46,197 bases of DNA from Pseudomonadota bacterium (lineage in GTDB: Bacteria; Myxococcota_A; Bradymonadia; UBA4248): NCBI GenBank assembly GCA_017464085.1, contig JAFUEE010000045.1, forward strand, positions 1 through 46,197, given 5' to 3'. The stretch's first letter is position 1; each line of letters starts with the position of its first letter. Of this stretch, positions 21,931 to 38,078 are shown one piece after another. The position numbers and the translations under genes are program-made. A model generated the notes under the pieces. The model was not told where the DNA came from. It did no database searches and saw only the letters and a list, made by a program, of their open reading frames with translations.

Positions 21931-22267
21931 CGGCTTTCAAACGTCGGTGATGCCCCAAAACAACGCTTCCCAATGCTTTTCTTTCTGGAGGGGGTGTGGG
22001 GGAACCTCATTCTTTTGGCACAAAATAAAGAGGTTACCCCACGAAGCGCTTCACGACGAAGCGCTTTCCTGCGAAGCATTTCATGTGAAACGGAGCAAAT
22101 CGGTTTGCTCCATGACAATTTTTTGTGGCACACATCTGAATGCTTTTCTGGATGATTTGCTTGAATTTACACATGATAAATATCACCCTCCATAGGGAAC
22201 AAATATTTGTTATGTTGTTCTAAAATTGTTCCGCTTGCACAATTTCGCTCGTTCGGTAAACCTACAA
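21931..22267. promoter_or_regulatory. Leader region of the island with hairpins and a palindromic operator-like site
   Basis: Contains three GAAGCGCTT/GAAGCATTT-type direct repeats near 22041-22082. A terminator-like hairpin, GGAGCAAA/TTTGCTCC (22092-22111), is followed by T6 (22119-22124). The perfect 12-bp palindrome ACAAATATTTGT lies at 22199-22210. It sits inside a wider inverted repeat, GGAACAA (22196-22202) with TTGTTCC (22226-22232). The last looks like an operator in front of the first island gene; its ligand is unknown. Confidence 0.5.
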
Positions 22268-23062
22268 ATGCGTATGATGCGCATCTTTATTGGTATTCGC
22301 AGCAACCTCATGACGGACCATAGCTTACATCAAGACATATTGCTCAAAGACCCACTCGCAAAGATCGGGGATTACTACGAGGCGCTGGCTCAAATCGCTC
22401 GCACAAGGTCTTTTGGGGCGTTGCCAAATGTCGAGAAACTCTATCTCCTGATGACTGTTGTCAGACTGCCGACTGAATTCGCTGTGCTCATGGAAATCGC
22501 AAGGCTCAATGGCATTACGTATGGGGAGCTTTGTCAGCTTTTGACGAGTTTTCCAAACTACTTTTATGAGCTGCGCGAGGACATCTGGGTGACATTGGCT
22601 TATGCTGAATGCAACGGTTATGTGCTGCATGACGATAGGCCGCATGCTTCTGTCTGCTCTCAATGTGACAGCCCGGACAATCCCAAGGACATCTTGAAGA
22701 ACAAAGAGGAACATCCTGTAAAGAATGGCATCATCTGCATGTCACAGAATGAGATCAGATGCTCTGTACAGGCATTTTGTCAGTCTTCTGTATTCAGGAT
22801 GCAGCATGAGAACAACTATCTGATCTTGCAGGCGTTTATGGCAGGTTTGCCGCGTCCGATCCGCGCTTCAGATCTCAACAATGTCGTTTACAACATCTTT
22901 GGGTTTTCTATTGCAAGATCGACGCTCCGCAAGCACCTGTGCAAACATCCAGACCTCTACTGCACGCCGACACATGGCGTCTGGTGCTCGGAAAAACTTG
23001 CTCGCGAAACGCCATATTCCGATTGCAGGGAAAATTTGCCAACACATTCCTGTTCCTCTTGA
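22268..23062 (+). CDS. Hypothetical protein with possible winged-helix C-terminus
   Basis: About 264 residues. No family recognised. The N-terminal half is helical (LKDPLAKIGDYYEALAQIAR, VEKLYLLMTVVRLPTEFAVL). The region after about residue 205 (IRASDLNNVVYNIFGFSIAR then STLRKHLCKHPDLY) has a helix-turn-helix feel, followed by a short strand with Trp, so DNA binding is a guess. Several cysteines (CSQCDSPDN and others) could bind metal. The frame is open from a TTG at 22226; ATG at 22268 is chosen, and ATG at 22310 is an alternative. None has a clear ribosome site. First gene of the island, next to an operator-like palindrome, so an autoregulator role is possible. Confidence 0.65.
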   Translation: MRMMRIFIGIRSNLMTDHSLHQDILLKDPLAKIGDYYEALAQIARTRSFGALPNVEKLYLLMTVVRLPTEFAVLMEIARLNGITYGELCQLLTSFPNYFYELREDIWVTLAYAECNGYVLHDDRPHASVCSQCDSPDNPKDILKNKEEHPVKNGIICMSQNEIRCSVQAFCQSSVFRMQHENNYLILQAFMAGLPRPIRASDLNNVVYNIFGFSIARSTLRKHLCKHPDLYCTPTHGVWCSEKLARETPYSDCRENLPTHSCSS

Positions 23063-23122
23063 TGGCACTGGAAATGAAAGTCAACACCTTTGAAGCAGAA
23101 TAACCTATTCTAGGAGTCAGAT

Positions 23123-23674
23123 ATGAACACTCTGGAACGTACGCTCGCACGAGGGGATCAAGATATCCTCAAGCGTTCTGCACTCACGTGCGGACGCTCG
23201 GATGATGCAGCGCGCATCGCGGATTACACGCGCATGGCAATCCGTGCCTTCCGAGAAGATGTCCTCAAAAGCATTCAGGACGAGAAAAAATTCGGAAGTG
23301 CTGCGCATCGCAAAAATGTAGACCAGAACACGCTTAAAATTGAGAGGATCAAAAAAGAACATCACGTCACCAGTCAGGAATTGCTTCGCCTTGCTGATGA
23401 AGCGCTCAAGGACTATAGCCAAAATTATCCAACAGAAGGCAGATACACATACGTCAGCCAAAATACTGCATCCGAGCGCTCCAAGCTCGACCTGTTACTC
23501 GTCATCTGCCTCATTCTTCTCTTGCTCCTTTCACTGCTCTGCGCGATCAGATATATCGAAGCGACGCATATCAATAATCGCCGGCAGATTTTGAAAGACA
23601 AATATCAATTCTCCGAGATCATCATTCCGCAAAATGAACGCAACGTCCTGGACGATGCGCTCAGACGAAAGTGA
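23123..23674 (+). CDS. Single-pass membrane protein of unknown function
   Basis: 183 residues. A charged, helical N-terminal part (1-~118) contains KIERIKKEHHVTSQELLRLA. One transmembrane segment follows (about 121-141, LLLVICLILLLLLSLL) and then a basic stretch and a short C-terminal tail. By the positive-inside rule orientation is ambiguous, because both sides carry lysines and arginines. An excellent Shine-Dalgarno AGGAG lies 6 nt before the ATG. It lies between the putative DNA-binding protein and a coiled-coil lipoprotein, so it is likely part of the membrane module of the signalling island. No homologous family is recognised. Confidence 0.75.
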   Translation: MNTLERTLARGDQDILKRSALTCGRSDDAARIADYTRMAIRAFREDVLKSIQDEKKFGSAAHRKNVDQNTLKIERIKKEHHVTSQELLRLADEALKDYSQNYPTEGRYTYVSQNTASERSKLDLLLVICLILLLLLSLLCAIRYIEATHINNRRQILKDKYQFSEIIIPQNERNVLDDALRRK

Positions 23675-23702
23675 GATGTTGAGCTTCTAAGGCTGGCTTA
23701 AA

Positions 23703-24380
23703 ATGCACTTACGCGAATGCACGCTCCTACTATTTTTGTTTACGCTGTCGGTATTACTCCCCGGGTGTGCCGACTTTTTCCAGATGCTTCAGGTCAAATT
23801 CACGCATGAAGTGCCCTCAGATCTGCAGACTTGCCAGGCTCGGGAATTGGAAGAATTCACGATGAACAAAAAACTTGAAGCACGCTTAGAGAAGTGCACG
23901 GAAAAAAACAAAAAGCTTCACGAGGATGTGCAGAAACACCAAGCCATCCGTGACAGAGAGAAATTCGAATGCAATGCGAAAATCTCCAAAATAGGCAAGG
24001 ATAAAACTGAGCTTCAGCAGGAAGTCAAACGCCTGAATCTTCTGCTCGGTCAGCCTTCCAAATCTGGGGCTTCTGGTGTGTCTGCAAAAGTTTTTCTTGA
24101 CGACACATTGCCGCACATCCCCTCTCAATCTGAGGATTCGGAGAGCTTTTTTGACAACCAAACAGCCTATGCATTCTCCAAATTAGAACATGTCAAGCAA
24201 AAGGCTGTGCAGTTCAAAAAGGAAAATGAAAAGCTCAAAACTGAAGCTGACAAGCTCAAAAGGGAAAATGAAAAACTCAAAGCAAAGATAAGACAAGCGG
24301 AAAACGATCAAAAAGAACTTCAAAATAAAATTGACCTTCTGATGAAGGAAATCAAACGTCTCAACGCACTTGGCCAGTAA
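23703..24380 (+). CDS. Coiled-coil lipoprotein
   Basis: 225 residues. The signal peptide ends in lipobox VLLPGC (Cys at residue 22). Two coiled-coil blocks follow (about 50-115 and 165-222, with KKENEKLKTEADKLKREN heptads), separated by a Ser/Gly-rich linker around PSKSGASGVSA. It should be anchored in a membrane facing the periplasm. It lies directly before the kinase gene (24 nt to the kinase ATG) and resembles, in coil composition, the other coiled-coil proteins of the island, suggesting zipper-type contacts with them. No enzymatic motif. Function unknown. Confidence 0.8.
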   Translation: MHLRECTLLLFLFTLSVLLPGCADFFQMLQVKFTHEVPSDLQTCQARELEEFTMNKKLEARLEKCTEKNKKLHEDVQKHQAIRDREKFECNAKISKIGKDKTELQQEVKRLNLLLGQPSKSGASGVSAKVFLDDTLPHIPSQSEDSESFFDNQTAYAFSKLEHVKQKAVQFKKENEKLKTEADKLKRENEKLKAKIRQAENDQKELQNKIDLLMKEIKRLNALGQ

Positions 24381-24404
24381 AGCCCTAACATGAAAGGAAA
24401 AAAT

Positions 24405-25703
24405 ATGTCACACGAACTGAATATCGGCACTCAAATACCTCTCGAAAACGGAAACACCGCGACCATTATGGAAAAACTCGGCGAAGGCGGACAGGGAACC
24501 GTCTATCGCGTTTCAATTGACGGAAAAGACTATGCCCTCAAATGGTATTTTCCTGAAAGAATATCAAAGCCGAAAGACTTTTATGAGAATCTCAAAAACA
24601 ATATCGAAAAAGGCTCCCCAAATGACGCCTTCTTGTGGCCAAAATTCCTCACAACCAATAACAACGGCAGATTCGGATATATCATGGATCTGCGCCCCAA
24701 AAACTATCGTGATTTTTCGGAAATCCTGCTCAATAAGGTCAATTTTAACGCGCTTTCGACTGTCGTTATGGCGGCGATCAATATTGTCAACGGTTTCCGC
24801 GATCTTCACCGCAATGGCTATTCCTATCAGGATCTCAACGACGGCAACTTTTTTATCGATACAGATACTGGCAGCGTCCTGATTTGCGACAATGACAATG
24901 TCGCCCCTTATGGAACGAGTCTTGGCATTGCTGGTAAAGCAAGATATATGGCACCGGAAGTCGTCCGTAGCAAAATGCGGCCAGACAATATCACCGATCG
25001 CTTTTCGCTTGCAGTCGTTCTCTTTTTGCTCTTCTTCAGAAACCATCCGCTCGAAGGGCAACGGCTTGTTCAGTGTCCATGTCTCACCGAAGAGCTAGAA
25101 CTCAAATTTTATGGGAAAGACCCTGTCTTTATCTGTGATCCTGAACGTGACAATAATAGGCCTGTGCCAGACGTTCATGACAACGTGATTCGACTCTGGC
25201 CCCTCTTCCCCGCTTTCTTCAGGGAAATCTTTCAAAAAGTCTTCTCAAAAGACTGTCTCCATAGAGACCGAAATCGTCCTACGGATAACGAATGGCAGAT
25301 TGCACTCACCAATCTGCGCAGCTGCATCGCCACTTGTCCAAATTGCGGTCAGGAGACTTTTATGGACGAAAGCCTCGGAAGATGCATCAATTGTAATATT
25401 TCAATCCCCAAACAGAGAATACTCGTTTGCAAAGACGATAAATACAAAGTTGTCCTCTTCCCCGGCAACAAGCTCTATCGCTGCCACACGGATTCAACAT
25501 CCGATGACTATCAGGAAATCACCGGGGAAATCATCCGAAATCCCAAAAATCCGCAGCTATGGGGCATCAAAAACCTCACCCAGGATTGCTGGAACACCGA
25601 AGGGGCTGAGAGCAAAATGATTCCGCCTGGCGGCGTCCTCATCATCACGCGCACTTCACGCATCACGTTTTCTGCTTCGTGCAGCGCTGATATTATTTTC
25701 TAA
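24405..25703 (+). CDS. Ser/Thr protein kinase with C-terminal zinc ribbon (TerY-P type)
   Basis: 432 residues, cytoplasmic. The Gly-rich loop is GEGGQGTVY (26-34) and the ATP-anchoring Lys is in YALKW (K46). The catalytic loop reads SYQDLNDGNFF, keeping the Asp and Asn but lacking the usual HR and Lys. The DFG position reads CDNDN, and the activation-segment end is YMAPEV. A CPNCG...CINC zinc ribbon (about 312-338) and a beta-rich tail follow. The kinase + vWA + PP2C set matches the TerY-P triad described for tellurium-resistance-linked stress systems. The start at 24405 is preferred because AAAGGA lies 6 nt before it, whereas the ATG at 24390 has no ribosome site. Active kinase is likely but atypical. 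Confidence 0.88.
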   Translation: MSHELNIGTQIPLENGNTATIMEKLGEGGQGTVYRVSIDGKDYALKWYFPERISKPKDFYENLKNNIEKGSPNDAFLWPKFLTTNNNGRFGYIMDLRPKNYRDFSEILLNKVNFNALSTVVMAAINIVNGFRDLHRNGYSYQDLNDGNFFIDTDTGSVLICDNDNVAPYGTSLGIAGKARYMAPEVVRSKMRPDNITDRFSLAVVLFLLFFRNHPLEGQRLVQCPCLTEELELKFYGKDPVFICDPERDNNRPVPDVHDNVIRLWPLFPAFFREIFQKVFSKDCLHRDRNRPTDNEWQIALTNLRSCIATCPNCGQETFMDESLGRCINCNISIPKQRILVCKDDKYKVVLFPGNKLYRCHTDSTSDDYQEITGEIIRNPKNPQLWGIKNLTQDCWNTEGAESKMIPPGGVLIITRTSRITFSASCSADIIF

Positions 25704-25743
25704 TCATCAAATTTTCTAACCATCAAAAAAAAGGAGTCTCATC

Positions 25744-26559
25744 ATGGGTATTTACGATCAAGACATTATGCAGTCAGTGGCAAGACGTTCGATGACCGTC
25801 TTTTTTCTCGTCGACACATCCGGCAGCATGTACGGCGCAAAAATCGGCACGCTCAATCTGGCCGTCGAAGAAACGATTCCTGAACTCAAAACACTTTCTG
25901 CATCAAACGCCGATGCGCAGACTAAGGTGGCTGTTCTAAAATTTGATACCGATGCGGAATGGATCACGCCTGCGCCGATCGATATCGAATCTTTTCAGTG
26001 GACACAGCTCAATGCCGGTGGTTTGACAGCATTCGGTGATGCCTGTTTCAAGCTCGAACAGAAACTTCACAAGGAAGCGTTCATGTCAGACGCGGCTGGC
26101 AATTATGCCCCAGTCTTCATCTTGCTCTCCGACGGTGCGCCGACTGACGATTTTAAGGTTCATCTCGACAAACTCAAAAATAACAATTGGTTCAAAAAAG
26201 GTGTCCGCGTGGCCATTGCCATCGGGGATGACACGATCATCGATACGCTCGAAGAATTTACAGGCAGCAGAGAAACTGTCCTCCCTGTCTATTCACCAGA
26301 AATGCTCCGCAAAATCATTCGCTTTGTCTCGGTGACTGCCTCTCAGGTCGCATCCAAGTCCAGCAATGTCGGACAACAGACGGCTCCAGATCAGACAACC
26401 ACAAAACAGCAGGACTTTATCTACGCACTTAATCAGTCTTCGATAATGCAGCCCGCCGATGATGGCTCCGATTTGGGACAGGGCTTTGATGCTCGTAACC
26501 AGGCTTCGGTGATGCAGCCCGCTGATGACGGCTCCGATCTTGGAGATGTCGAATGGTAA
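25744..26559 (+). CDS. TerY-like vWA domain protein, intact MIDAS
   Basis: 271 residues, soluble. A vWA domain occupies about 14-200 with all metal-site (MIDAS) parts: DTSGS at 24-28, Thr in GGLTAFGDA, and Asp in LLSDGAPTDD. A Ser/Gln-rich linker leads to a tail with two copies of an 18-residue element (NQSSIMQPADDGSDLG and NQASVMQPADDGSDLG), ending in DVEW. The repeated acidic peptide and final Trp look like a docking or phosphorylation tail, since a kinase is upstream and a PP2C phosphatase overlaps downstream by 7 nt. Shine-Dalgarno AAGGAG precedes the ATG. In TerY-P systems this protein is the presumed target or scaffold for the kinase/phosphatase pair. Confidence 0.9.
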   Translation: MGIYDQDIMQSVARRSMTVFFLVDTSGSMYGAKIGTLNLAVEETIPELKTLSASNADAQTKVAVLKFDTDAEWITPAPIDIESFQWTQLNAGGLTAFGDACFKLEQKLHKEAFMSDAAGNYAPVFILLSDGAPTDDFKVHLDKLKNNNWFKKGVRVAIAIGDDTIIDTLEEFTGSRETVLPVYSPEMLRKIIRFVSVTASQVASKSSNVGQQTAPDQTTTKQQDFIYALNQSSIMQPADDGSDLGQGFDARNQASVMQPADDGSDLGDVEW

Positions 26560-27644
26560 AGCGTTCAAAATTTCGGAAATCAGAAAATTATAAAGCAAAG
26601 CGCAAGAAACGCATGGATGCTAAAAATAAGAAACTCAAACGATTATTTCGCCCGATTCCTCAATTTAAATCGCATCATTTTTGCGTGCGCGGATATTTGC
26701 ATATCAAAAACGGACTGCCATGTCAGGACACTTCTGATGCGATCCTTAAGGAGAATTATTGCCTTGCTGTCATTGCCGATGGGCATGGAAGTCCCCAGTA
26801 TTTCCGCTCAGATCGCGGAAGCCGATTCGCTGTCGATACATTCAAACAGTGTGTCGAAGAGGCCCTCAAGGCTGCCGAATATCGTCATCACAAGGATGAT
26901 TCCTCAAAAGAGAATACATCTATCAATCTGGTCGATGCACTGACAAAGCCCAGATTGTCTAAGAAAAGACGTGATCAGATCATTCAGCAGTTTTGTCAGA
27001 GCATTTTGGTCAATTGGCGAGATGCGGTGCAAAATGATATGCAAACCGAACCATTTTCGGAAGAGGAAATACAAAAAATTCCTGAAAAATATCGCAATAC
27101 AAAACAAGAATATATTTCCGCTTATGGTTCAACGCTTGTCGCAGCGCTTCTCGTCGCGGATTTCTGCTTGCTGATACAGATCGGTGATGGCGTCTGTGTG
27201 GTCTTTGATGATGACTTTCCTGACATGACTTCATCATTAAATCCAAGTCATAAATCTACCCATGGAAAGCTTGTTTCATTTGAACCGATTCCTCTCGACG
27301 AGAAATGTTTTCTCAATACGACGACATCCTTGTGCGATGCGAAGGCAAACAATGAGTTTCACTGCTGTATGCTCAAAAAATTGCCTGTTGCCGTGTTGGT
27401 TTCAAGCGATGGCATCGAAGACTGTTTCCACGATCGTCAGGATTTGCACAAATTCTTCCACCGGATTCTTTTTGACTTCTGCGATTCTCATGAAGAAGGA
27501 GAGGCTGAGATGGCTTTGAATGAATTTCTCCCTCGCCTTTCTGAGAAAGGAAGCGGTGATGATATGTCGTTATCCATGTTCTATGACATTGAGCGCTTCA
27601 AAGCACTCACATCGGATGCAAAAGATAAGGCGGTTTCTGATTAA
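26553..27644 (+). CDS. PP2C-family protein phosphatase (TerY-P type)
   Basis: 363 residues, cytoplasmic. A strongly basic N-terminal ~33 residues (KAKRKKRMDAKNKKLKR) is followed by a PP2C domain: GLPCQDTSDA, metal-binding DGHG (76-79), AYGSTLVAALL, IGDGV, VSSDGIED and GSGDDMSLS. All metal-ligand aspartates are visible, so activity is expected. An insertion of about 90 residues between DGHG and the GST motif is helical and charged. The ATG overlaps the vWA stop by 7 nt with GGAG 7 nt upstream, so the two are coupled. Role inferred: removes phosphates placed by the adjacent kinase. REP-like palindromes follow its stop. Confidence 0.9.
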   Translation: MVKRSKFRKSENYKAKRKKRMDAKNKKLKRLFRPIPQFKSHHFCVRGYLHIKNGLPCQDTSDAILKENYCLAVIADGHGSPQYFRSDRGSRFAVDTFKQCVEEALKAAEYRHHKDDSSKENTSINLVDALTKPRLSKKRRDQIIQQFCQSILVNWRDAVQNDMQTEPFSEEEIQKIPEKYRNTKQEYISAYGSTLVAALLVADFCLLIQIGDGVCVVFDDDFPDMTSSLNPSHKSTHGKLVSFEPIPLDEKCFLNTTTSLCDAKANNEFHCCMLKKLPVAVLVSSDGIEDCFHDRQDLHKFFHRILFDFCDSHEEGEAEMALNEFLPRLSEKGSGDDMSLSMFYDIERFKALTSDAKDKAVSD

Positions 27645-27652
27645 ACGCTTCG

Positions 27653-27723
27653 CTATTGCGGCGGCTTGCCGCCGCAATACGCTTCGCCATCCTGGCTATC
27701 GCCTTCGGCGATACACCAGGATG
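27653..27723 (-). repeat. Two REP-like palindromes inside the island operon
   Basis: CTATTGCGG...CCGCAATACG (27653-27681, 10-bp stem) and CTATCGCCTTCGGCGATACA (27696-27715), the latter within outer arms CATCCTGG/CCAGGATG (27688-27723). They separate the PP2C gene from the second vWA gene and show that the host's palindrome family has entered the island. Confidence 0.78.
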
Positions 27724-27739
27724 CTTTGGAGAATGTATC

Positions 27740-28585
27740 ATGGGGATTTATGACAGCATATTGATGAAAGCGGTAGCCAGAAGGACGCTGACCATCTACT
27801 TTCTGATCGATGTGTCTTGGAGTATGAGAGGTTATAAAATTGATGCAGTCAATCAGGCACTTGCGGAAACGATACCCATGATTCAGGAAGTGTCTGAAGA
27901 AAATGCCGATGCTGAGATCATGATTGCAATCCTGACTTATGGGACATTTGCAGAATGGATTCAGGAACCGACATCTGTCATTGGGTTCGACTGCCCTACG
28001 ATCACAACCGGCGGACAGACGAATTTCAAAGATGCATGCATCAAGCTCAAAGAAATGCTCATGCAACAGGATTCCAAGACCAGCGGCGCGGGATGTTACG
28101 CGCCTGTCTTCATTTTGATGGCAGATGGCGGCAGCAACGCATACAAGACCGTGCTCAAAGACCTCAGGCAGATCAAATGGTTCAAACACGGCATCAAGGC
28201 AGCCATCGCAATCGGCGATGACGTTCATTTCAATGTGCTTGCAGAATTTACGGGCGATGCAGATACCGTGTTCAGGGCGCATTCAGCCAAACGTCTCAAA
28301 GATTTGATCAAACTTATTTCCGTCAAATCCTCACAGATCGCTTCAAAATCAGCCTCTGTCCAGGGACATGCAGGCTATTCGAATGCCAAAAATTCTTCAT
28401 CAAAATCAGCCTCTTTCCAACAGCAGTCCTACCGTACCACGGCATCTGCGTCTTCAATGCAAAAAGCCGCTCAGCAAGAGCTTGAAATTGACCGTGTTTA
28501 CTCAAAACAGGAAGAACTCGCGAAAACTCTCAAAATGTTCACACCTGCTGAAGACGAAGACTCACCTGAAAATTGGGATTGGTAA
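27740..28585 (+). CDS. Second TerY-like vWA domain protein
   Basis: 281 residues, paralogous to the vWA protein 2 kb upstream (shared MGIYD start, AVARR.LT.YFL core, IAIGDD strand). MIDAS is intact: DVSWS at 24-28, Thr in GGQTNFKDA, Asp in LMADGGS. After about 205 comes a Ser/Gln/Lys-rich linker and a helix, then an acidic end EDSPENWDW. Like the first vWA protein it finishes in an acidic-plus-Trp tail. The start at 27740 has GGAG 8 nt upstream; the longer frame from 27656 runs through REP palindromes and is rejected. Its stop overlaps the next ATG (TAATG), coupling it to the first degenerate-vWA protein. Confidence 0.88.
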   Translation: MGIYDSILMKAVARRTLTIYFLIDVSWSMRGYKIDAVNQALAETIPMIQEVSEENADAEIMIAILTYGTFAEWIQEPTSVIGFDCPTITTGGQTNFKDACIKLKEMLMQQDSKTSGAGCYAPVFILMADGGSNAYKTVLKDLRQIKWFKHGIKAAIAIGDDVHFNVLAEFTGDADTVFRAHSAKRLKDLIKLISVKSSQIASKSASVQGHAGYSNAKNSSSKSASFQQQSYRTTASASSMQKAAQQELEIDRVYSKQEELAKTLKMFTPAEDEDSPENWDW

Positions 28586-30393
28586 TGAATACGTCTGAGG
28601 TCAGTAAACGTCACCTGACAATTGTCTTTATTCTAATCTGCACATCGACGCTCGGCGATGCGTATGCCGGGCAGATGTTCACTGCAGTTGAAGAATTCAT
28701 CGAAGAAATCAGGCGATTTGCCAAAAAGCAAAAGCTCAACATCTCGATTGATACGCTGATCAATGCAGATAGAGTCTATTGGCAAAAGGATAAAGCAATA
28801 CCGCTCGATGAGTATGAATGGCGCAATCCGAATACTGGCGGAAATTTCAATTCATCCAAAGTTTTTTTGGCACTCAAGTGCAGGCTATATAAATACGTTC
28901 ATGATGACTATGTTCCGATTCTTTATCTATTTTCTGGAAAGTTGCATCCCAAATTAGATTGTAATGAATATCAGGATTTAATAAAATATCCGATTTACAA
29001 GCAAGCCGTGAGAAATTCAGTATCACTGAAGGAGATAACTGAATTTCTAAAAGAATTTGCTACTTCACCTGAAAACATATTTTCAGAACTAACACCTGAA
29101 TGTTTAAAAATAGGATTACGATTAAAGCAAAATCAATTCGACCGCGAAATCGATAAAAGTTCTGATGGTATAATTAAAAATACTTATGTACAAGAAAATG
29201 AGTTGCCATTCATAAATTCTGAAATGCTATATGATGATTTGAAATCCAAATACGATGAATTACTTAAAAAATATCAGAATTCAAACTCAGAACTGCAAAA
29301 AGCCAGAAATGATCATCAGACAACAATAAGTGAAAATGCCAAGCTGAGCACCGATCTTCAAACCATCAAGAGCGAGAGAGACAATCTGAGCACAGAGCTT
29401 CAGAACATAAGAAAAAATTCAAAACAGCAATACCTTGAGCTATATCAAAAATATCTCTCCCTCGTTAAGTTAAGTTCTGATGTTAAAACGATAACAAGTG
29501 AAAGAGATAAGCTGAGCACGGAACTTCAGACCATCAAGAGCGAAAAAGCTCAACTGAGCACGGAACTTCAGACCATCAAGAGCGAAAAAGCTCAACTGAG
29601 CACAGAGCTTCAGACAATAAAAAATACTAATGTCAAGCTCTGCACAGATGTTCAAACGATAACGAGTGAAAAGTCCAAGCTGAGTACCGAGCTTCAAACT
29701 ACAAAAGGAGAAAAATCAAAACTCAGTGCTGAGCTTCACACTATCAAAATTAGCTCAAAACTTCAATGCGACAAATTGCAAAATGAATTGGATACAGCTC
29801 ATTCTGAGAGAGACAAGGCTATTGCAGAAGTCAACGCGCTAGCTTGCAAAAATCAATTATATCACAATAAATATAAAGTTGCAGTCATTGCCTCTGGGGT
29901 ATTGCTTTTAAGCTGCATACTTCTTCTTATACCCAGAACACCTCAGCCTGAACAAGTGGAGGTTACGGAACACAAGGCTGAATCTTCTGATAATTCATCT
30001 AGTATCACCAAAACACAAGAAATGATTTCAGAAGCATCTGTTAATCTCCGAAATGATGCGCCTAGCATTTTGCCATCCGATACCCCAAACAGTGTATCGA
30101 CTCGAAACTGCACCTATAACAGAACTGAAATCGATATGAGCTTATCTGTTGCGCATGAGGTCATATACGACCTGATAAGGTCAAGCAATCCTCAAATAAC
30201 TGGTAATTTGACGGGGAAACTAAAAATTGACGCAAATTCAGTATCGTGGGTGACTACCCAGAATACGCTTAAGCCACGAGTCTCCCCTGTTTGGCTTTCT
30301 AAGACCATTGAAAACAATTACAAATATCCATCCAATTGCACTGGTTCTCCAGTAGAAGTCACTTGGACATTCAAATACTTAGGCCATTTATGA
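28585..30393 (+). CDS. Degenerate-vWA / coiled-coil / membrane protein, copy 1
   Basis: 602 residues. Residues 9-~190 align by eye with the two upstream vWA domains, but the MIDAS is gone: DTSGS becomes CTSTL with Cys19 at the Asp position, and LLSDG becomes YLFSGK. A coiled coil (about 215-425) has 14-residue repeats of the LQTIKSEKAQLSTE type. One transmembrane helix (about 431-450) follows, with lysines before it, so the N-terminus is cytoplasmic. The periplasmic end (about 510-602) resembles an AgmX/PglI or TonB-like C-terminal domain (SNPQITGNLTGKLKI ... SPVEVTWTFKY). Coupled by TAATG to the second vWA gene. Its stop is 6 residues later than in copy 3, because TAA has become TTA. Role inferred: membrane adaptor for the vWA proteins. 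Confidence 0.8.
   Translation: MNTSEVSKRHLTIVFILICTSTLGDAYAGQMFTAVEEFIEEIRRFAKKQKLNISIDTLINADRVYWQKDKAIPLDEYEWRNPNTGGNFNSSKVFLALKCRLYKYVHDDYVPILYLFSGKLHPKLDCNEYQDLIKYPIYKQAVRNSVSLKEITEFLKEFATSPENIFSELTPECLKIGLRLKQNQFDREIDKSSDGIIKNTYVQENELPFINSEMLYDDLKSKYDELLKKYQNSNSELQKARNDHQTTISENAKLSTDLQTIKSERDNLSTELQNIRKNSKQQYLELYQKYLSLVKLSSDVKTITSERDKLSTELQTIKSEKAQLSTELQTIKSEKAQLSTELQTIKNTNVKLCTDVQTITSEKSKLSTELQTTKGEKSKLSAELHTIKISSKLQCDKLQNELDTAHSERDKAIAEVNALACKNQLYHNKYKVAVIASGVLLLSCILLLIPRTPQPEQVEVTEHKAESSDNSSSITKTQEMISEASVNLRNDAPSILPSDTPNSVSTRNCTYNRTEIDMSLSVAHEVIYDLIRSSNPQITGNLTGKLKIDANSVSWVTTQNTLKPRVSPVWLSKTIENNYKYPSNCTGSPVEVTWTFKYLGHL
29514..29612 (+). repeat. 42-bp tandem repeats in coiled-coil gene (copy 1)
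   Basis: Two identical 42-bp units (starts 29514 and 29556, beginning GAGCACGGAACTTCAGACC) plus a partial third. They lie inside a longer run of diverged units from about 29340 to 29750. Each unit encodes 14 residues, that is two heptads. Confidence 0.85.
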
Positions 30394-30548
30394 ATATATT
30401 CACACGAAAGACATCACATCCGTATATCAGACAACGCGCATTTAGCGGATTTTCAAGGAACATCATTTGCCTGCATGCTCTTTCATGGACTGATAAAATA
30501 CCTGAATTTATGCCGAAAACACTTCTGAATATTGGGATTGGTAAATGA
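30390..30548 (+). pseudogene. Scar: remnant of a helicase 5' end joined to a vWA 3' end
   Basis: Between the first two degenerate-vWA genes. From ATG 30390 the frame reads MNIFTRKTSHPYIRQRAFSG, which matches the start of the helicase at 33821 (MNTSHHNSSRPLDASQRAFC); the preceding AGGCCAT also matches. At 30511-30544 the DNA (ending CTGAATATTGGGATTGGTAA) matches the last codons of the second vWA gene (GAAAATTGGGATTGGTAA), in another frame reading AENTSEYWDW-stop. The middle of both genes is missing. It fits tandem duplication of a vWA/degenerate-vWA/helicase unit followed by a deletion. Unlikely to be expressed as a functional protein. Confidence 0.75.
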
Positions 30549-32386
30549 ATACTTCTGAGGTCGGCAACCGCCAACTGACAATCGTCTTTATTTTGATTTG
30601 CACAGCAGCACTCGGTGATGCGTGTGTCGGACAGATGTTCCAAGCCGTCGAAGAGTTTATCGAAGAAATCAGGCGATTTGCCAAAAAGCAAAAGCTCAAC
30701 ATCTCGATCGATACGCTGATCAATGCAGAAAGGGTCTATTGGCAAACGGATAAAGCTGTACCGCTTGAGGAGTATGAATGGAGCAATCCTGGGGTTGGTG
30801 GCAAATTTAAATCATCCAAAGTCTTTTCGGCACTTAGTAGCAGGCTCGATAACTATGCGCGTGATGAATACCTCCCCATACTCTATCTATTCGGCGGAAT
30901 TCTAGAACCAAACTTGAACAGTGCGAACTATAATGCGCTCAAATCTCAAAACATATATCAGTTAGCCATTAGAAATGCTGTGATATTGAAGGGGATAACA
31001 GCGTTCTTAGAAGCATTTGCAACTTCACCTGAGCATGTTTTTTCGGAAGTAACGCCAGAATGTCTCAAAAAAGGCCTAATTTTAAAGCTGATGAAAGAAC
31101 TGGTCTTGCAAAGTGATCAGACAGCTGGCAAAGATTTATTTAAAGAAGCAGAACAAAAGATAAAGAAATTTGAAACATTATACGAAGATTCAAAAAATCA
31201 ATATCTTGAGCTCTATCAAAAGTATCAAAACGAGAACACACAACACAGAGCCGACCTTCAGACTGTAATAAACGAGAACGCACAACACAGAGCCGACCTT
31301 CAGACTGTAATAAATGAGAACGCACAACTCAGAGCCGACCTTCAGACTGTAATAAACGAGAACACACAACACAGAGCCGACCTTCAGACTGTAATAAATG
31401 AGAACGCGCAAATTACTAATAAGTACAATTATTACTACTTACAATTTATATACAAATCTAATGAAGTTAATAATTTAAATTTACAATTAGATGGAACTAT
31501 AATAGATTTCAATAGTAAGTGTAATGAGTATAATAAACTGAATAGTGAATATGAAATATTTAAAAGTAAACATGTACCCCACATTGCAGAACTACAGACT
31601 ATCAAAAGTGAGAATGCTAAGCTTAAAAATGAACTTCAGAACAAAATAAATGAACTCAACAAGATGAAAAGTGATTCCGTAAAACAATTATCAAAGAACG
31701 ATATTATTAGTTTTGCAATAACTAACATAAACAGAAAGGAGCCAGTTAAAATTGATAAGGTAACTCGAATTGCTATAGAGGATATGCTTTATTCATTCCA
31801 TAGATTATTATCTGAATCAAATGGATATCTTGAGCTCAATCGCTTTCCCGAACTTGAGAAAGCAACTCAAATTGCTTTAAACAATTATAAAACGAAAGTA
31901 GAAAAAATTCTCACTGAATTGAGCAATAATTATCATAGAACTGCTATAGTCGAATTAAAGCGCAACTTAACTGAAGAAGCAATAAATAGAATACCTAGCA
32001 TTAATCTTGAGAATAACGATGATAACTCTGATTTAAACAAAAATTATTCAAAAACTTGTAACTCTGATTTAATAAAACACATAGGAATACTTAGAAGAAT
32101 TATATTGGTCATTCTTAGTGCTATTATTATCTTTCTAATTATGTTTGCAATAAAAGGCTATTATGTTGAACTAGGAGAGTATTATACGCGAAGTACTTTT
32201 ATACCTGTTATTATATCATTAGTACTTGGCTTGGGCTATATATGTATATGGCATGCATTTCATCCAGGAAACTATAAGGTACTGATGCAAGGCTACGACT
32301 TTGAGGGCAGTGGTTGTCTTGAGATAATAGTCAATTTTGTTATATTTATTATTATTATTATAATCATCGCAATATGTCACATATAA
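30545..32386 (+). CDS. Degenerate-vWA / coiled-coil / multi-pass membrane protein, copy 2
   Basis: 613 residues. The N-terminal ~190 residues are clearly paralogous to copies 1 and 3 (CTAALGDACVGQMF, AVEEFIEEIRRFAKKQKLN, FATSPEHVFSEVTPE) and again lack the vWA metal site. A coiled coil with four to five near-identical 14-residue units of the HRADLQTVINENAQ type spans about 229-290 and continues to about 385. The C-terminal part differs from the sister genes: a helical region and then three hydrophobic segments (about 515-535, 550-575, 590-612), with no TonB-like domain. The 3' half is very AT-rich. The ATG is preceded by the remnant vWA tail. Probably a membrane adaptor with a swapped C-terminus. 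Confidence 0.78.
   Translation: MNTSEVGNRQLTIVFILICTAALGDACVGQMFQAVEEFIEEIRRFAKKQKLNISIDTLINAERVYWQTDKAVPLEEYEWSNPGVGGKFKSSKVFSALSSRLDNYARDEYLPILYLFGGILEPNLNSANYNALKSQNIYQLAIRNAVILKGITAFLEAFATSPEHVFSEVTPECLKKGLILKLMKELVLQSDQTAGKDLFKEAEQKIKKFETLYEDSKNQYLELYQKYQNENTQHRADLQTVINENAQHRADLQTVINENAQLRADLQTVINENTQHRADLQTVINENAQITNKYNYYYLQFIYKSNEVNNLNLQLDGTIIDFNSKCNEYNKLNSEYEIFKSKHVPHIAELQTIKSENAKLKNELQNKINELNKMKSDSVKQLSKNDIISFAITNINRKEPVKIDKVTRIAIEDMLYSFHRLLSESNGYLELNRFPELEKATQIALNNYKTKVEKILTELSNNYHRTAIVELKRNLTEEAINRIPSINLENNDDNSDLNKNYSKTCNSDLIKHIGILRRIILVILSAIIIFLIMFAIKGYYVELGEYYTRSTFIPVIISLVLGLGYICIWHAFHPGNYKVLMQGYDFEGSGCLEIIVNFVIFIIIIIIIAICHI
31229..31411 (+). repeat. 42-bp tandem repeats in coiled-coil gene (copy 2)
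   Basis: Units begin at 31229, 31271, 31313, 31355 and 31397 (partial). Each contains CACAGAGCCGACCTTCAGAC and encodes a 14-residue heptad pair. The near identity of units implies recent slippage or recombination. Confidence 0.9.
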
Positions 32387-32400
32387 TCAGGATGACGAAG

Positions 32401-33813
32401 ATGATCACTTCACTCGACGACAATATCTCTAACATCCAAGCGAGTGCATCAAAACATGCAGTCACTGTCCCTTCACGGAATATCTCCGATTGCTCTGAAT
32501 TAGCAACAACACACAACCGTCACCTGACAATCGTCTTTATCCTCATCTGCACTGAAAGACTCGGCAATGCGTATGTCGGGCAGATGTTCACGGCAGTCGA
32601 AGAATTTATCGAAGAAATCAGGCGGTTTGCCAAAAAGCAAGAGATCAATGTCTCAATCGATACGCTGATCAATGCAGAAGAGGTCTATTGGCAAACGGAT
32701 AAAGCTGTACCGCTTGATGAGTATGAATGGCACGCTCCAAATGCTGGCGGCACTTTCAAACCACCAAAAGTTTTTTCAATACTTAATAACAGACTCGTTA
32801 ACTACGCACATGATGAATACTTTCCTATCATTTATTTATTTTCTGGTAAGTTATATCCTAAATTAAATTGCAAAGAATATCAGGATTTAATAAAATTATC
32901 AATTTACCAGCAAGCAGTGAGAAATTCAGTCTCACTAAAGGTGATAACAACGTTCTTAGAGGCATTTGCAACTTCACCTGAACACATACTTTCGGACTTT
33001 ACACCAGAGAACCTTAAAAAAAGTCTCACATTAAAGCAAAATCAGAATATCTTTGATGCTGCTGAATGTATGACTGTCACAACATCGAATGTGTTTGATG
33101 ATGCAATACAAAAAATCAAGAATTTAGAAAATTTATACGAAGATTCAAAAACTCAATATCTTGAACTTTATAAAGAGTATCAAGTGGTTAGTGCAGAGCT
33201 TCAGACCATAAAAAATAACTCAATAACTCAATCCGACGAATTGCAGAAAAAGTTGGATGCAGCTTATTCTGAGCGTGATAATGCCATCGCAAATAGTCAC
33301 GCGCTCATTGCACAAACCCAAGTTAGGCATAAAAAACTCAAGCTCCTAACAATAGCATCTGGGGTGATAGCGTCATGCTTCATGATTAATCAACTGAATA
33401 TGAGTAGTAATCATGCTGTTCAACTTGCTGAGCTTAAAAGCAGTCATCAGATGCAGCTTGCAGAAGTTCAAAAACAAAGAGATGAGCTTTCTGCACAACT
33501 CAGTGCTCTGCTTCCGGAAGGGAGTAAAGACAAAAAAGTATGCTATTCCAATTCCATTGATATTGAAAAAACATTAAAAACTGCACATGGTGTAATATAT
33601 GAACAGATCAAGCAAAAGAATCCTAAAATATATGGAGAACTCATTGGAAAGCTGATCATTGAAAATGATACGGTATCCTGGGCGGTGATTCGAAATAAGC
33701 TCTATTCAAAGGTCTCCCCGAGCTGGCTCACTCAGATTATTGAAAATAATTACGAATACCCTTCCAATTGCACTGGTTCGCCAGTGGAAGTCACTTGGAC
33801 ATTCAAATACTAA
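32401..33813 (+). CDS. Degenerate-vWA / coiled-coil / membrane protein, copy 3
   Basis: About 470 residues. A unique N-terminal ~40 residues is followed by the shared pseudo-vWA domain (CTERLGNAYVGQMF at the MIDAS position). A shorter coiled coil lacks the 42-bp repeat expansion. One transmembrane helix (about 315-333) has lysines on its N side, then a second short coil and the same periplasmic C-terminal domain as copy 1 (KIYGELIGKLIIE ... SPVEVTWTFKY). Start 32401 is preferred because AGGA lies 8 nt upstream; the frame is open from 32374, overlapping the previous gene. The helicase ATG lies 7 nt after the stop, so the two are probably coupled. Confidence 0.8.
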   Translation: MITSLDDNISNIQASASKHAVTVPSRNISDCSELATTHNRHLTIVFILICTERLGNAYVGQMFTAVEEFIEEIRRFAKKQEINVSIDTLINAEEVYWQTDKAVPLDEYEWHAPNAGGTFKPPKVFSILNNRLVNYAHDEYFPIIYLFSGKLYPKLNCKEYQDLIKLSIYQQAVRNSVSLKVITTFLEAFATSPEHILSDFTPENLKKSLTLKQNQNIFDAAECMTVTTSNVFDDAIQKIKNLENLYEDSKTQYLELYKEYQVVSAELQTIKNNSITQSDELQKKLDAAYSERDNAIANSHALIAQTQVRHKKLKLLTIASGVIASCFMINQLNMSSNHAVQLAELKSSHQMQLAEVQKQRDELSAQLSALLPEGSKDKKVCYSNSIDIEKTLKTAHGVIYEQIKQKNPKIYGELIGKLIIENDTVSWAVIRNKLYSKVSPSWLTQIIENNYEYPSNCTGSPVEVTWTFKY

Positions 33814-33820
33814 GGCCATC

Positions 33821-35983
33821 ATGAATACATCACATCATAACTCTTCACGTCCGCTAGACGCCAGTCAGCGGGCATTCTGTGAGCTTCCTGGAGATGCCAT
33901 TCGTCTGCTTGCCCCTGCAGGGTCTGGCAAAACGCATGCCCTGCTCTGGAGATGCCGCAAACTCGTACATGACGATCCGAATACGAAAATTCTCATGTTC
34001 ACGTTTACGCGAGCGGCACGCGATGAATTGTCTGAACGCCTCAAACGTCCTGAATTTGCTCATATACAGGCCAATGTTTCGATGACGACGCTCAATAGTT
34101 ACGGGTATCAAATCGTCAAACAGATCATGCCGCGCTCGACGCTGATGACGAGTAAGCAGGAAAAACGAAATTGTCTGCAAGCGATGATGCCTGTGTGGCG
34201 ACATTATCCGATAATCAGCCAACAGCTTGAAGTGAAATATCCCTACAAGTCATGGGATCTCATGTTTGAGCTCAGCGATCGCCTCAAAAGTATAGGCTTT
34301 CGGCATGACCGTCTGGATACGTTTGAAGACTTTCAGAATCGAATAGCCATGCTCTCAAAAATCGGTATGGGACAGATGCTCAAAAAGATTTTTTCAGACC
34401 TGTTTGAACTCAAGGTCTGCGAGCAATATTGCCTTGATGATCTTTGCCAGTTATGGCTATTGCGTGAAGTGGAAGATGCCTATAAATCTCGTGTTGAGGC
34501 GATCTTGCGCGAAATCTATCACAATTATATCAAATATTGGTGTGAAGCGACTGCACAGATGATTCAGTTGGGCTTTATAACGCTTGAAGATCAAAAATAT
34601 ATCGCATCACTTTATCTTCATGAAAAGGTCAAAACACACGATTTGAATCCAGAAACATCACGCATACATCACATTTTCGTGGATGAATTTCAGGATATCA
34701 ATCCGATTGACCTCTCATTTCTTAGGGCTTTGGCACATTTAAACCAGACACAGCTTACAATCGTTGGTGACGATGATCAGGCAATCTATGAATGGCGAGG
34801 GGCTTCGCCAGCTTTTATATTGGCACCTGAGAAATTTTTGGGAACGAAGTATGTGACGCGTCTTCTCTCGACAAATTACCGCTCCCCACAAAATATTGTC
34901 GCACTATCGCAAAAACTCATTGAGCATAATAAACACAGGATTTGCAAGCGCGTTGAGGCTGCCAATACCATGGTTGCAAATGTTGAGATTTTGTCTTTCC
35001 CTGAGATTGGCGATGCAATCGCTCAAACGGTGAGCAAAGTTATGGAGCTGCTCCCGAGCGGACAGCGCATCGTACTCATCAGTCGGAAACGTAGTCAGCT
35101 CATACCCTACCAGATTGTATTTGCCGATCTCGGCATTGCTTTCTGCGCTGCTGAAGATTTGCAGATTTTTTTAAGCCAGGCTTTTCAAGAATTGCGAGAG
35201 TGTATTCAGATTTGTGATCAGATACAGCACACGAAGAGCATCTCTGTGGATCCTCGAAATCTCATCTTGACGCTGTGTGATAAGATTAAGCGTTATCCGC
35301 TCTCAAGAGCTGACAGAGCTGCCCTTTCTCAATACCTGCTTCAGCGTTCTCCGCAGTCGCTATGGGAGGCACTCGCGCATCTGAGAGAATACCATGGGCC
35401 GCTCAAAGGAGATAATTCGGATGCTCGGCAGAGCAAAAGATTTGCTGATATACTCAAGAAATTGTTCGAAGCAACTACGGTCTCTGAGTCGATTGATGTA
35501 TTTGGACAGTGCTTCGAAGGCTTGCAGAAAGATTATGGCAAGTCTGAAGACGATATTTTTTATACGGATCCACCGTTTATATATTTATCTGAATTTGCTA
35601 AAAAATATGGCAGTGATTACCAAAAATTTTGTAGCGATATCGACAAAGCGATCATTACCTTGGCGGATACCCAAATGCAGTCAGAGGATGAGATATCTTC
35701 GGTCTGGCAAAGACAGCTCCATCTCATGACAGCATTGCGTGCCAAAGGAAGGGAATTCGATACGGTCTTCGTGCTCGATGCTGTCTCTGATATCTGGCCG
35801 AGCAAGCAGGCAAAAACTGAAAGCGAGCTCGAACAGGAGAGACGATTGTTTTATGTTGCGGTGACTCGTGCCAGAAAAAACTTGTTCTTTGTCTTGGAGG
35901 GCTCTTTTGGGAAAGTTTCATTATCCCCTTCTCCCTTCCTCAAAGAAATGGGATTACTCCAGTCGCATGATGAGATGCTGTAA
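33821..35983 (+). CDS. UvrD/Rep-type SF1 helicase
   Basis: 720 residues with the full SF1A helicase set. Q-like region ASQRAF, Walker A APAGSGKT (31-38), motif Ia FTFTRAARDEL, motif II FVDEFQD (about 287), motif III IVGDDDQAIYEWRGA, motif IV LSTNYRSPQNI, motif V ALRAKGREFDTVFV and motif VI FYVAVTRARKNLFFV. No extra nuclease domain is visible. The start at 33821 has AAGG 5 nt upstream; the in-frame extension into the previous gene is rejected. A decayed copy of its 5' end lies at 30390, which shows it belongs to the duplicated unit rather than being a chance neighbour. Inferred role: nucleic-acid effector or repair arm of the island. Confidence 0.9.
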   Translation: MNTSHHNSSRPLDASQRAFCELPGDAIRLLAPAGSGKTHALLWRCRKLVHDDPNTKILMFTFTRAARDELSERLKRPEFAHIQANVSMTTLNSYGYQIVKQIMPRSTLMTSKQEKRNCLQAMMPVWRHYPIISQQLEVKYPYKSWDLMFELSDRLKSIGFRHDRLDTFEDFQNRIAMLSKIGMGQMLKKIFSDLFELKVCEQYCLDDLCQLWLLREVEDAYKSRVEAILREIYHNYIKYWCEATAQMIQLGFITLEDQKYIASLYLHEKVKTHDLNPETSRIHHIFVDEFQDINPIDLSFLRALAHLNQTQLTIVGDDDQAIYEWRGASPAFILAPEKFLGTKYVTRLLSTNYRSPQNIVALSQKLIEHNKHRICKRVEAANTMVANVEILSFPEIGDAIAQTVSKVMELLPSGQRIVLISRKRSQLIPYQIVFADLGIAFCAAEDLQIFLSQAFQELRECIQICDQIQHTKSISVDPRNLILTLCDKIKRYPLSRADRAALSQYLLQRSPQSLWEALAHLREYHGPLKGDNSDARQSKRFADILKKLFEATTVSESIDVFGQCFEGLQKDYGKSEDDIFYTDPPFIYLSEFAKKYGSDYQKFCSDIDKAIITLADTQMQSEDEISSVWQRQLHLMTALRAKGREFDTVFVLDAVSDIWPSKQAKTESELEQERRLFYVAVTRARKNLFFVLEGSFGKVSLSPSPFLKEMGLLQSHDEML

Positions 35984-36080
35984 TGACCGAATATTTGCCA
36001 TAAAACCAATATGGCTGTATGACAAATATCTGCCATCAGAGATGGCAATGCCCTTAATTCCTTAGCTATGGAGATATTAG

Positions 36081-36848
36081 ATGTCTCACCTTAAAGAAAT
36101 TGAAAGCGAGTTCGATAAAAAGCTAGAAGCTCTTTATGCCAAACTTAAAAGTGATAAACAAAATTTGGAAGCTAAAGAAGCTATATCTTCTCTAAAGAAT
36201 AGTTTATCTAAAAATGACACAAAAAACGTACTTGCACACACAGAACAATCTGCTGTGGGTACAGAAATATCTAATAAACAAAATATTTCTAATACTAAAA
36301 GAGGACTTTCTGCGTCAATGAACACGCTGAAAAATAAGATAATTACCCCTACGCCTCCAGCTACAAACATCAAACAACTAGGTCTTAAATCTGAATCAAG
36401 CGAAGATATTTCCTCTAAAGGAAAAATTAATGCTTTAAAAGAAGAAAACAAGCGACTTCTCGGTCTGCTTGCAATGAAGAATGCTGAATTTGAAAAAGTT
36501 AAGAAAGAGCTTACACTTTTAAAACAACTAGATGAAAATGATCTGACAGCGTCATTAAAATTATACAACGAAAACGATGGACTTCGAAAGGATTTAGATA
36601 ACCTTCAAAATGAGCATAACTCGCTTCAGGATTCAAATATACAACTTAAGAAGCAAATTGCAGACCTCGAAACTGAACTGAATGGCGAGATCATCAGCAT
36701 TATTATTCCTAAAAATTATAAGTTAGGCATATATAAAGGCCCCGGATATAGCTATGAGCAAATTGGCTCTTATTCAAAAATCTCAAAAGTTAAATTCAAA
36801 CATATACTTGATGCTCAAAATGGTTGGTATAAAATTAATTTGAATTAG
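36081..36848 (+). CDS. Coiled-coil protein ending inside an SH3b domain (5' part of a frameshifted gene)
   Basis: 255 residues to the TAG at 36846. Helical and coiled-coil N-terminal part, then a bacterial SH3-like domain (YKLGIYKGPGYSYEQIGSYS ... NGWYKINLN) that stops before its last strands. The missing strands are found immediately downstream in the -1 frame (GWIDAKYALKTL from 36848). The open frame therefore seems interrupted rather than complete. Good ribosome site: GGAG 7 nt before the ATG. It follows the helicase gene by 97 nt and is AT-rich like the rest of the island's right half. As read, it would be a soluble truncated protein. Confidence 0.75.
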   Translation: MSHLKEIESEFDKKLEALYAKLKSDKQNLEAKEAISSLKNSLSKNDTKNVLAHTEQSAVGTEISNKQNISNTKRGLSASMNTLKNKIITPTPPATNIKQLGLKSESSEDISSKGKINALKEENKRLLGLLAMKNAEFEKVKKELTLLKQLDENDLTASLKLYNENDGLRKDLDNLQNEHNSLQDSNIQLKKQIADLETELNGEIISIIIPKNYKLGIYKGPGYSYEQIGSYSKISKVKFKHILDAQNGWYKINLN

Positions 36849-38078
36849 GATGGATTGATGCAAAATATGCTCTAAAAACTTTAGATGTTGCCTCAGATAG
36901 AGTGATTAAAGATCCAAATTTAGTTTCAAAATTTGAAAGTCTTCAATTTGAACATGATGAGCAGAATAAACGTTACACAGCACTTGAAAATATTTTTCAA
37001 GAATCAAAAAAAATATATAAGCACACTTCAGTCTCAGATTAATTCATCTAAAGTTGAATGCTCAAATTTAAATAATCAATTGATTAGAATTAATCATGAA
37101 TGCTTAGATTTGAAAGCCCAACTGAACACAACAAAAACTCAATACGCTGATCTTCAGGACAAGTATTCGCAATCTCAAAATGAGCTCATTGCAAGTCGAA
37201 AGGCGTCTGCAGTCGCAGAAAAGAAATATGATTCGGCGATTTTACAATGCTCTGCCCTTCGAGATGAACTACAAGCGGCGAATGATCGATGCACTCAGTT
37301 CAAATCAAAGTTTGAGAAAACTGTTCAGGAATGCTCAGAATATATAGCGTTACTTGAAGTGAGTGAGCAGGAGTGTGCCAGCCTGCAATCCTATATTGAG
37401 GCAGGCAATGAGCAATATGCAGCTTTGCAGCAGCAATATGTCGTTTCCCAAGAAGAACTCACAGCACGTCACGAGGAAATCAAAGCGATACAGGCGAAGT
37501 TTGATGAAGCATCCTCGCAATGTTCAACCCTGCATGATGAGCTCAATGCATCAAACGAAAGAAATCTTCAGCTCAAAACTCAGCTTGATACCTCTATCGG
37601 AGAAAGTGCAGCCCTCAAAACTCAGCTTGAAGCATCTTCGGCTGAATGCGCTGAGCTTCAAGCCTGTCTTGATGCATCTACCAAGGAATGCGCCAACTTG
37701 CGGGATGAATGCGCTTCTGTAAACACTCAATATGCCGATCTGCAAAGCCAGTATTCAGCATCTCAAGAAGAACTCGCAGTGCGTCACGAGGAAATCAAAG
37801 CGATACAGGCGAAGTATGATGAAGCATCCTCGCAATGCGCTGCCCAGCAGACTGAGCTATGCATTTCACGGGAAACCAATACGCAGTTGAATGTACAATG
37901 CAATGATACAAACAAGCAGATGATTGATAATCATGCTGCACATGGTGAATTATTGTATAAAAAGTCAGTGAATAATTTTGGCGCAAATCCTGAAGATCAG
38001 GATGACAGTCAAATCAAGGAGATTATGATTATTTTCATCATTGTAATTGTGCTTTTTATCATATTTATGAGCAAATGA
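36849..38078 (+). pseudogene. 3' part of the frameshifted SH3b/coiled-coil membrane gene
   Basis: From 36848 the -1 frame completes the SH3b domain and continues as coiled coil to a TAA at 37040-37042. In the A8 run at 37006-37013 the coil moves back to the original frame (KKYISTLQSQINSS...) and runs to 38078. No in-frame ATG with a ribosome site starts this part (only a TTG at 36933), so it depends on the upstream start. It encodes ~350 residues of Cys-containing coiled coil with a 57-bp internal duplication, and a C-terminal transmembrane helix (IMIIFIIVIVLFIIFMSK). Either two real compensating frameshifts, assembly errors at low-complexity sites, or phase-variable expression through the A8 tract. 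Confidence 0.65.
37467..37838 (+). repeat. 57-bp duplication in coiled-coil region
   Basis: 37467-37523 and 37782-37838 are identical except for one base (TTTGATG versus TATGATG). They encode RHEEIKAIQAKFDEASSQC-like segments 105 codons (15 heptads) apart, which keeps the coil in register. Confidence 0.88.

Follow-up and report, generated by a model that had tools for sequence, protein, structure and literature searches.

The 46,197-bp stretch of DNA analysed here (the window) is one entire contig of the 4.35-Mb draft genome of a gut bacterium, which comprises 199 contigs. It carries an island of 13 accepted genes on one strand, in which a kinase, a von Willebrand factor A (vWA) protein and a PP2C phosphatase of the TerY-P type are extended by a second intact TerY vWA, by three paralogous proteins (pv1, pv2 and pv3) whose TerY-related heads have lost every metal-site residue, and by a UvrD-type helicase of superfamily 1 (SF1). 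The same blocks are found in a second species of the genus (G004). Tentatively, and with somewhat less than even confidence, the island may be read as a TerY-P switch combined with envelope-placed metal-less TerY relatives and an SF1 helicase, which together would form a sensor of envelope damage or of phage.

The TerY-P core, the metal-less vWA proteins and the helicase

By its domain content, the segment 24390-28585 is a TerY-P triad with a second intact TerY vWA (Table 1). Each of the traits examined was found, namely a TerY vWA with the DxSxS/T/D metal site, here in two copies, a PP2C phosphatase, a zinc-ribbon kinase and a conserved neighbourhood, and the four zinc-ribbon cysteines are invariant throughout an alignment of 35 full-length kinase rows. 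This composition agrees with the published description of TerY-P (PMC11090510, PMC4978471). Related kinase loci were taken as the best 80 of at least 574 confirmed stretches, with flanks of up to 10 kb; the locus counts and the tree given below rest on this sample, which is biased towards gut genomes. The kinase reading frame is present in 79 of the 80 loci, vWA and PP2C in 64 each and both partners in 62, all 62 of which show the order kinase-vWA-PP2C. Many loci are cut by contig ends, the contig reaching at least 4 kb past the kinase in 61 and at least 9 kb in 45. The window kinase is about 45-60% identical to those of the other retained loci and 77% identical to that of L020, a locus of G004. 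As a side observation, 56 of the 68 TerY-like vWAs of the 80 loci end in a C-terminal tryptophan, including both in the window (26500-26556 and 28530-28582), mostly preceded by acidic residues among the 12 tails viewed (GDIEW, NWDW, ESIEW); such an end may constitute a docking tail, perhaps for the metal site of another vWA.

The pv proteins (28585-33813) are three paralogues with an N-terminal domain homologous to the TerY vWA (E ~1e-8). These heads have lost every metal-site residue, and each continues into a coiled coil and predicted membrane segments. For pv1 and pv3 a C-terminal domain of TonB/TolA-type fold is predicted; the underlying model was computed for the pv3 tail, aligned to that of pv1, and the pv1 assignment leans on the same model. 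An earlier sequence-only reading had described both the triad and three paralogous metal-less vWA proteins with coiled coil and membrane anchor. Its overall observation is borne out, the anchoring being predicted. Its interpretation is supported in part, namely for the triad, for the metal-less paralogues and for the recurrence in a second species, whereas an anti-phage or stress role and a phospho-relay are conjectural.

Close relatives of the pv proteins are few. A word-based search of 5.8 billion proteins with the pv1 head returned six matches, comprising the three window paralogues, two near-copies and one 57% relative (P0006) of pv2-like layout, while a word-based search with the tails (75 candidates) yielded none beyond the window paralogues and near-copies. 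Among 50 rows of matches for pv3, most concerned the coiled coil alone and were set aside. Tandem repeats of 42 bp (14 codons) at 29512-29615 and 31228-31411 encode coiled-coil parts of pv1 and pv2, respectively. Since near-identical database proteins differ by multiples of 14 residues (644 versus 602 aa; 585 versus 613 aa), the length of the rod seems to change in 14-residue steps.

The helicase is full length, and its motifs appear intact when read by eye. It matches the phage family phrog_1967 across its length (3e-74, 252 bits), a GajB model of PADLOC (4.6e-55, 185 bits, among the best 25 of 49 rows) and DNA helicase II (UvrD; 153 bits), and its orthologue in G004 is 76% identical.

Table 1. 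Features of the island and its margins in window coordinates (TM, transmembrane segment)
Feature	Position	Strand	Remarks
Repeat-rich stretch without accepted gene	20756..22225	.	between Fur-like gene and island
Three tandem copies of 146 bp	21359-21784		within the repeat-rich stretch
Gene A, Cys-rich soluble protein, 252 aa	22304..23062	+	possible operon start; G004 has an orthologue in the same position (65% identity)
Small protein	23123..23674	+	one TM near residue 124 (hydrophobicity scan)
Predicted lipoprotein with coiled coil	23703..24380	+	lipobox ...LLPGC, by eye
Ser/Thr kinase (TerY-P kinase)	24390..25703	+	C-terminal zinc ribbon, beta-rich tail; Pkinase 3.2e-15
TerY-type vWA 1	25744..26559	+	intact metal site (DTSGS, T, D)
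PP2C-type protein phosphatase	26553..27644	+	PP2C_2 2.2e-31
TerY-type vWA 2	27737..28585	+	intact metal site (DVSWS, T, D); 74% identical in L020
pv1	28585..30393	+	vWA head without metal site, then coiled coil (42-bp repeats), one TM and, at 30091-30378, a predicted TonB/TolA-like C-terminal domain
pv2	30545..32386	+	vWA head without metal site, then coiled coil (42-bp repeats) and a helical segment; three hydrophobic segments at the C-terminus
pv3	32374..33813	+	vWA head without metal site, then coiled coil, a weak TM and, at 33514-33810, a predicted TonB/TolA-like C-terminal domain
SF1 UvrD-type helicase, full length, 720 aa	33821..35983	+	UvrD-helicase 3.4e-35
Coiled-coil protein	36081..36848	+	weak bacterial SH3-like tail
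Long coiled coil	36933..38078	+	C-terminal TM (tail anchor)
Predicted intrinsic terminator, island 3' end	38158..38183	+	9-bp stem, then TTTTTT

Recurrence, origin and boundaries

In G004 the corresponding blocks are spread over three contigs (C228, C91 and C53), and their joins are inferred from gene order. Contig C91 (L020) carries gene A, the coiled-coil lipoprotein, kinase, vWA1, PP2C, vWA2 and a pv head, while contig C53 (L120) carries a pv tail, the helicase (its reading frame open and separated by 6 nt from the pv stop codon), broken pv-like pieces and PAP2. These broken vWA pieces (L120:2911-3600) stand between helicase and PAP2, in the place occupied by two coiled-coil genes in the window, and perhaps represent a further, decaying pv paralogue. 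Between the two species, the ratio of nonsynonymous to synonymous substitution rates (dN/dS) amounts to 0.06-0.11 for gene A (~0.08), kinase, vWA1, the pv2 head and the helicase, at a dS of 1.3-3.6 that is near saturation; for PP2C, vWA2, the pv3 head and the tails the ratio was not computable, with pN below pS in each. Purifying selection thus acts on those parts that dN/dS can measure. Among the window's own paralogues the ratio is ~0.3.

The kinase orthologue is absent from the other four genomes of the genus (G002, G003, G005 and G006), which gave only weak kinase matches. Within a sample of 377 genomes of the phylum, the kinase was detected in 12 and pv heads in two. Nine of the ten other matching genomes were read out around the kinase, the weakest (G200) being left out. 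All nine show the order vWA, PP2C, kinase with one metal-site vWA each, the PP2C frame overlapping the vWA in L192; none of these loci has a metal-less vWA or a helicase match, and some of their vWAs weakly match the pv profile or pv2. The sequence-only reading had proposed to look for linkage of pv genes and helicase to the triad in other genomes: this linkage stood within the genus, where blocks with triad, pv genes and helicase recur in G004, and did not extend beyond it in the 79 other kinase loci, a good number of which end early with their contig, in the nine phylum loci or in the phylum sample.

This distribution bears on the possibility that two unrelated modules lie side by side, one being the TerY-P triad and the other an operon for envelope structure, made up of pv and coiled-coil genes, with a hitch-hiking helicase. 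Only in one genus do the pv genes and helicase accompany the triad, and neither of the coiled-coil genes at the 3' end (36081 and 36933) is matched in those pieces of G004 that were examined, as this explanation would predict. It is nevertheless very unlikely, given that the pv heads share homology with the TerY of the triad itself, that the helicase follows a pv tail directly in both species, and that the genes from vWA2 to helicase overlap or almost touch: pv1 starts at the last base of vWA2, pv2 and pv3 overlap, and pv3 and helicase are 7 nt apart, the sole larger gap being the 151 nt between pv1 and pv2.

Elsewhere, different genes follow PP2C. In two Treponema loci (L081:12946-14689 and L087:6913-8900) the genes after the triad encode a ZorA/ZorB-like pair, with ZorB2 model scores of 8e-68 and 1e-69, accompanied by a conserved protein of 418-438 aa without PADLOC match. 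In L066:12882-15878 and L083:5435-8500, as well as in L072 and L073 by clustering, a large SF2 helicase near DpdF models takes this place; these loci belong to Clostridia and a Bacteroidales, and a small coiled-coil-looking protein stands alongside. Moreover, an FtsK/EssC-like cluster, of which one member was tested, follows PP2C in four loci. The same kinase family also occurs beside a membrane protein of cluster c8 in L032, L037 and L039 (Ruminococcus/Clostridiales), together with cluster c10 in L032 and L039, and neither vWA nor PP2C was called within these three loci.

In a kinase tree of 89 rows, the pair formed by window and G004 (100/100) falls inside kinases of gut Bacillota and Spirochaetota, with enclosing clades of 21 rows (97/81) and 23 rows (100/98), and the nine phylum relatives form a separate group across the midpoint root (100/100). 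Because of this placement and of the kinase-vWA-PP2C order, the kinase was likely acquired horizontally from the gut community. The donor is unsure, since the sample was chosen by similarity and eight of the nine phylum rows have odd composition and several of the nine have long branches.

The island is bounded on one side by a Fur-like gene (20321-20755), which follows an NAD synthase gene, and on the other by a gene for a PAP2 phosphatase (38201-39046). Its GC content is 34-47% in 2-kb bins as against 51-60% upstream of 20 kb; downstream, only 47-51% is reached. Within the repeat-rich stretch that precedes it, the open reading frame 21650-22195 has no Pfam match. The sequence AAAATGAGATTCCA has seven exact copies in the draft genome, all seven at 21361-21918, and its 13-base form is absent from the G004 pieces L139, L020 and L120. 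At the 3' end, the site 38158-38183 is a prediction only, terminator-like sites of this kind numbering 20 as against 13.8 expected. A phage or integrative element was considered and rejected: there is no tRNA, and PHROGs matches were obtained for three of the seven island proteins run, strongly for the helicase and weakly for kinase and vWA1. A relative of the kinase was likewise absent from viral contigs in a single-protein search, which detects close relatives only. Comparison of the flanks in G002, G003 and G005 gave no clean empty insertion site, Fur being flanked by different genes in all three and PAP2 likewise in G002 and G003. As Fur and PAP2 lie on separate contigs in G002 and G003, the insertion edges are undefined; in G004, the Fur contig (L139) stops ~1.3 kb past Fur.

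Of the genes upstream of the kinase, gene A has no family match above cut-off. The 23123 protein has no homologue in the 80 kinase loci, L020 included, nor is it matched in the G004 pieces, and the 23703 lipoprotein has a weak counterpart at the same place in L020, with its own lipobox (E 1.3e-5).

A possible envelope sensor and competing explanations

Under the tentative reading given at the outset, the metal-less heads would bind the TerY/kinase complex and set it free once the envelope is disturbed. In a first step, an insult to the envelope, such as adsorption of a phage or entry of its DNA, would move the periplasmic domains, together with the 23703 lipoprotein. Subsequently, the coiled coils would transmit this movement to the pv heads, which, bound to TerY head-to-head without metal, would alter the access of TerY1 and TerY2 to kinase and PP2C. 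The resulting shift in phosphorylation would finally activate the helicase to act on invading or damaged DNA, possibly until growth arrest. The proposed contact between pv and TerY, envelope sensing and phospho-signal to the helicase draw support by analogy from conflict systems whose core component and effectors carry the same repeated domain, as described for effector-associated domains (PMC7159879). Moreover, the predicted TonB/TolA-like C-terminal domain, which the sequence-only reading had not noticed, renders membrane sensing more plausible. Phage defence would be the leading role, because TerY-P has been reported to act against T7-like phages (PMC7699616) and Zor-, DpdF- and FtsK-like genes follow PP2C in other loci, with metal or DNA-damage stress as the main rival.

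Several points weigh against this reading, in addition to the near-saturated dS and the incomputable ratios given above. The tail model reaches a pLDDT of 70 and was built from two sequences, and its best fold match has a Z of 6.0 as compared with the tool's comfort level of 8; the model of whole pv3 is poor (pLDDT 50) and too weak for strong claims. The TonB_C and AgmX/PglI sequence models gave no Pfam or NCBIfam match to the pv tails, a hidden Markov model of the tails reached a best E of 0.27 against AgmX loci, and hhalign of the tails with AgmX domains scored 17.45, a value that column shuffles exceed (up to 17.95, n=60). In addition, the TM of pv3 is marginal by hydrophobicity and pv2 is devoid of a TonB-like tail. 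The link of pv genes and helicase to the triad spans two contigs in G004; neither a metal-less vWA nor a relative of the window helicase was found in the other 79 of the 80 kinase loci, many of them cut by contig ends, and the linkage, limited to one genus, probably reflects a single event. Finally, neither TerY vWA is matched by PADLOC, and the kinase is matched by its general kinase models only. Independently of the tail prediction, AgmX/PglI C-terminal domains (NF033768) occur in all nine genomes of the window's order examined, with up to 26 matches per genome.

Alternatively, the island could be a Ter-type system of metal or oxidative stress, in which TerY senses metal, the pv proteins only localise the triad, the helicase repairs DNA and phages are not involved. 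Published triads are tied to tellurite and metal stress (PMC11090510), 21 of the 80 kinase loci contain cluster c4, of which the member tested is TerD, and three adjacent TerD genes lie on another contig of the window's own genome (G000:C62, L197:8535-10343). We consider this unlikely: TerD is absent from the island, the 18-kb TerD stretch has no kinase, vWA or PP2C match, and the predicted TonB/TolA-like tails and the lipoprotein suggest the envelope instead.

Metal-less paralogues of an active partner typically act as decoys, and the pv proteins fit this description. The island could accordingly be a threshold or suicide device, in which pv decoys sequester kinase or TerY at the membrane, their release lets the kinase halt the cell, and the helicase is a target in the cell cycle or replication. 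Kinase-phosphatase modules such as KKP do operate in phage defence (PMC11341870). Still, such a device appears improbable, in that Pfam and PADLOC scans of the island proteins recognised no toxic effector domain and that the kinase family also occurs without vWA and PP2C neighbours (L032, L037 and L039).

If the envelope-sensor reading were extended further, the pv proteins might constitute a new trans-envelope receptor for stress or immunity, composed of a dead TerY head, a length-adjustable coiled coil, a TM and a TonB/TolA-like periplasmic domain, through which surface events set the kinase-PP2C switch and the helicase. Triads would then serve different envelope sensors as interchangeable cytosolic relays, the pseudo-vWA/TonB-like proteins in this island and the ZorAB-like motors in Treponema. 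This extension is rather doubtful. Three metal-less, envelope-predicted TerY relatives beside two intact copies offer a direct test of metal-free TerY pairing and of a triad that responds to the condition of the envelope. If both were true, phospho-switch modules and envelope-sensor modules of the Zorya-like kind would follow one logic in bacterial immunity.

Comparison with known systems

The island shares with TerY-P triads the neighbouring zinc-ribbon kinase, TerY vWA and PP2C, and differs from them by its second intact TerY vWA, its three metal-less TerY-related proteins of predicted membrane location and its UvrD-type helicase. In published triads that stop phages, an OB fold replaces the zinc ribbon (PMC11090510). 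A similar kinase with zinc ribbon and beta-rich domain adjoins PP2C and vWA in actinobacterial GTPase systems (PMC7159879).

Membership in described defence systems was examined by Pfam for all 13 island proteins (for the 36933 protein, the best 25 of 31 rows) and by PADLOC for ten (for the helicase, the best 25 of 49 rows), the 22226, 36081 and 36933 proteins being scanned by Pfam only. CoCoNuT systems of type II and III-A likewise combine a TerY-P triad, a vWA that is duplicated and degenerate in one of its copies, coiled coils and an SF1 helicase (PMC11090510). However, their helicase is of the UPF1 type as opposed to UvrD, and their second vWA lacks the threonine only, whereas the pv heads lack every ligand; membership was rejected, as Pfam gave no McrB/McrC or HEPN row. 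With Gabija the island has in common a helicase that scores well against GajB models. Membership was rejected here as well, PADLOC finding no GajA-type protein, and Pfam gave no OLD/TOPRIM row. Zorya resembles the island in outline, as an inner-membrane assembly with a periplasmic part and a DNA-acting effector (PMC11890865), the corresponding island parts being predicted; with no Zor model row in PADLOC, membership was equally rejected.

TonB, TolA and AgmX-GltJ proteins may share with pv1 and pv3 a TM followed by a C-terminal domain of, for the pv proteins, predicted TonB/TolA-CTD-like fold; they differ in that pv carries a metal-less vWA head and a coiled coil ahead of the TM and gives no TonB_C or AgmX sequence signal. 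The sequence-only reading had called the whole arrangement unrecognised. This does not hold for the helicase, since helicases adjoining TerY-P triads are already published (PMC4978471, PMC11090510). It does hold for metal-less TerY membrane proteins with TonB-like tails, for which no report was found in the open-licence literature, outside which many journals lie. Taken together, a helicase beside TerY-P is a known arrangement, to which the island adds the combination of a pseudo-vWA head with a predicted TonB-like tail as an apparently new element.

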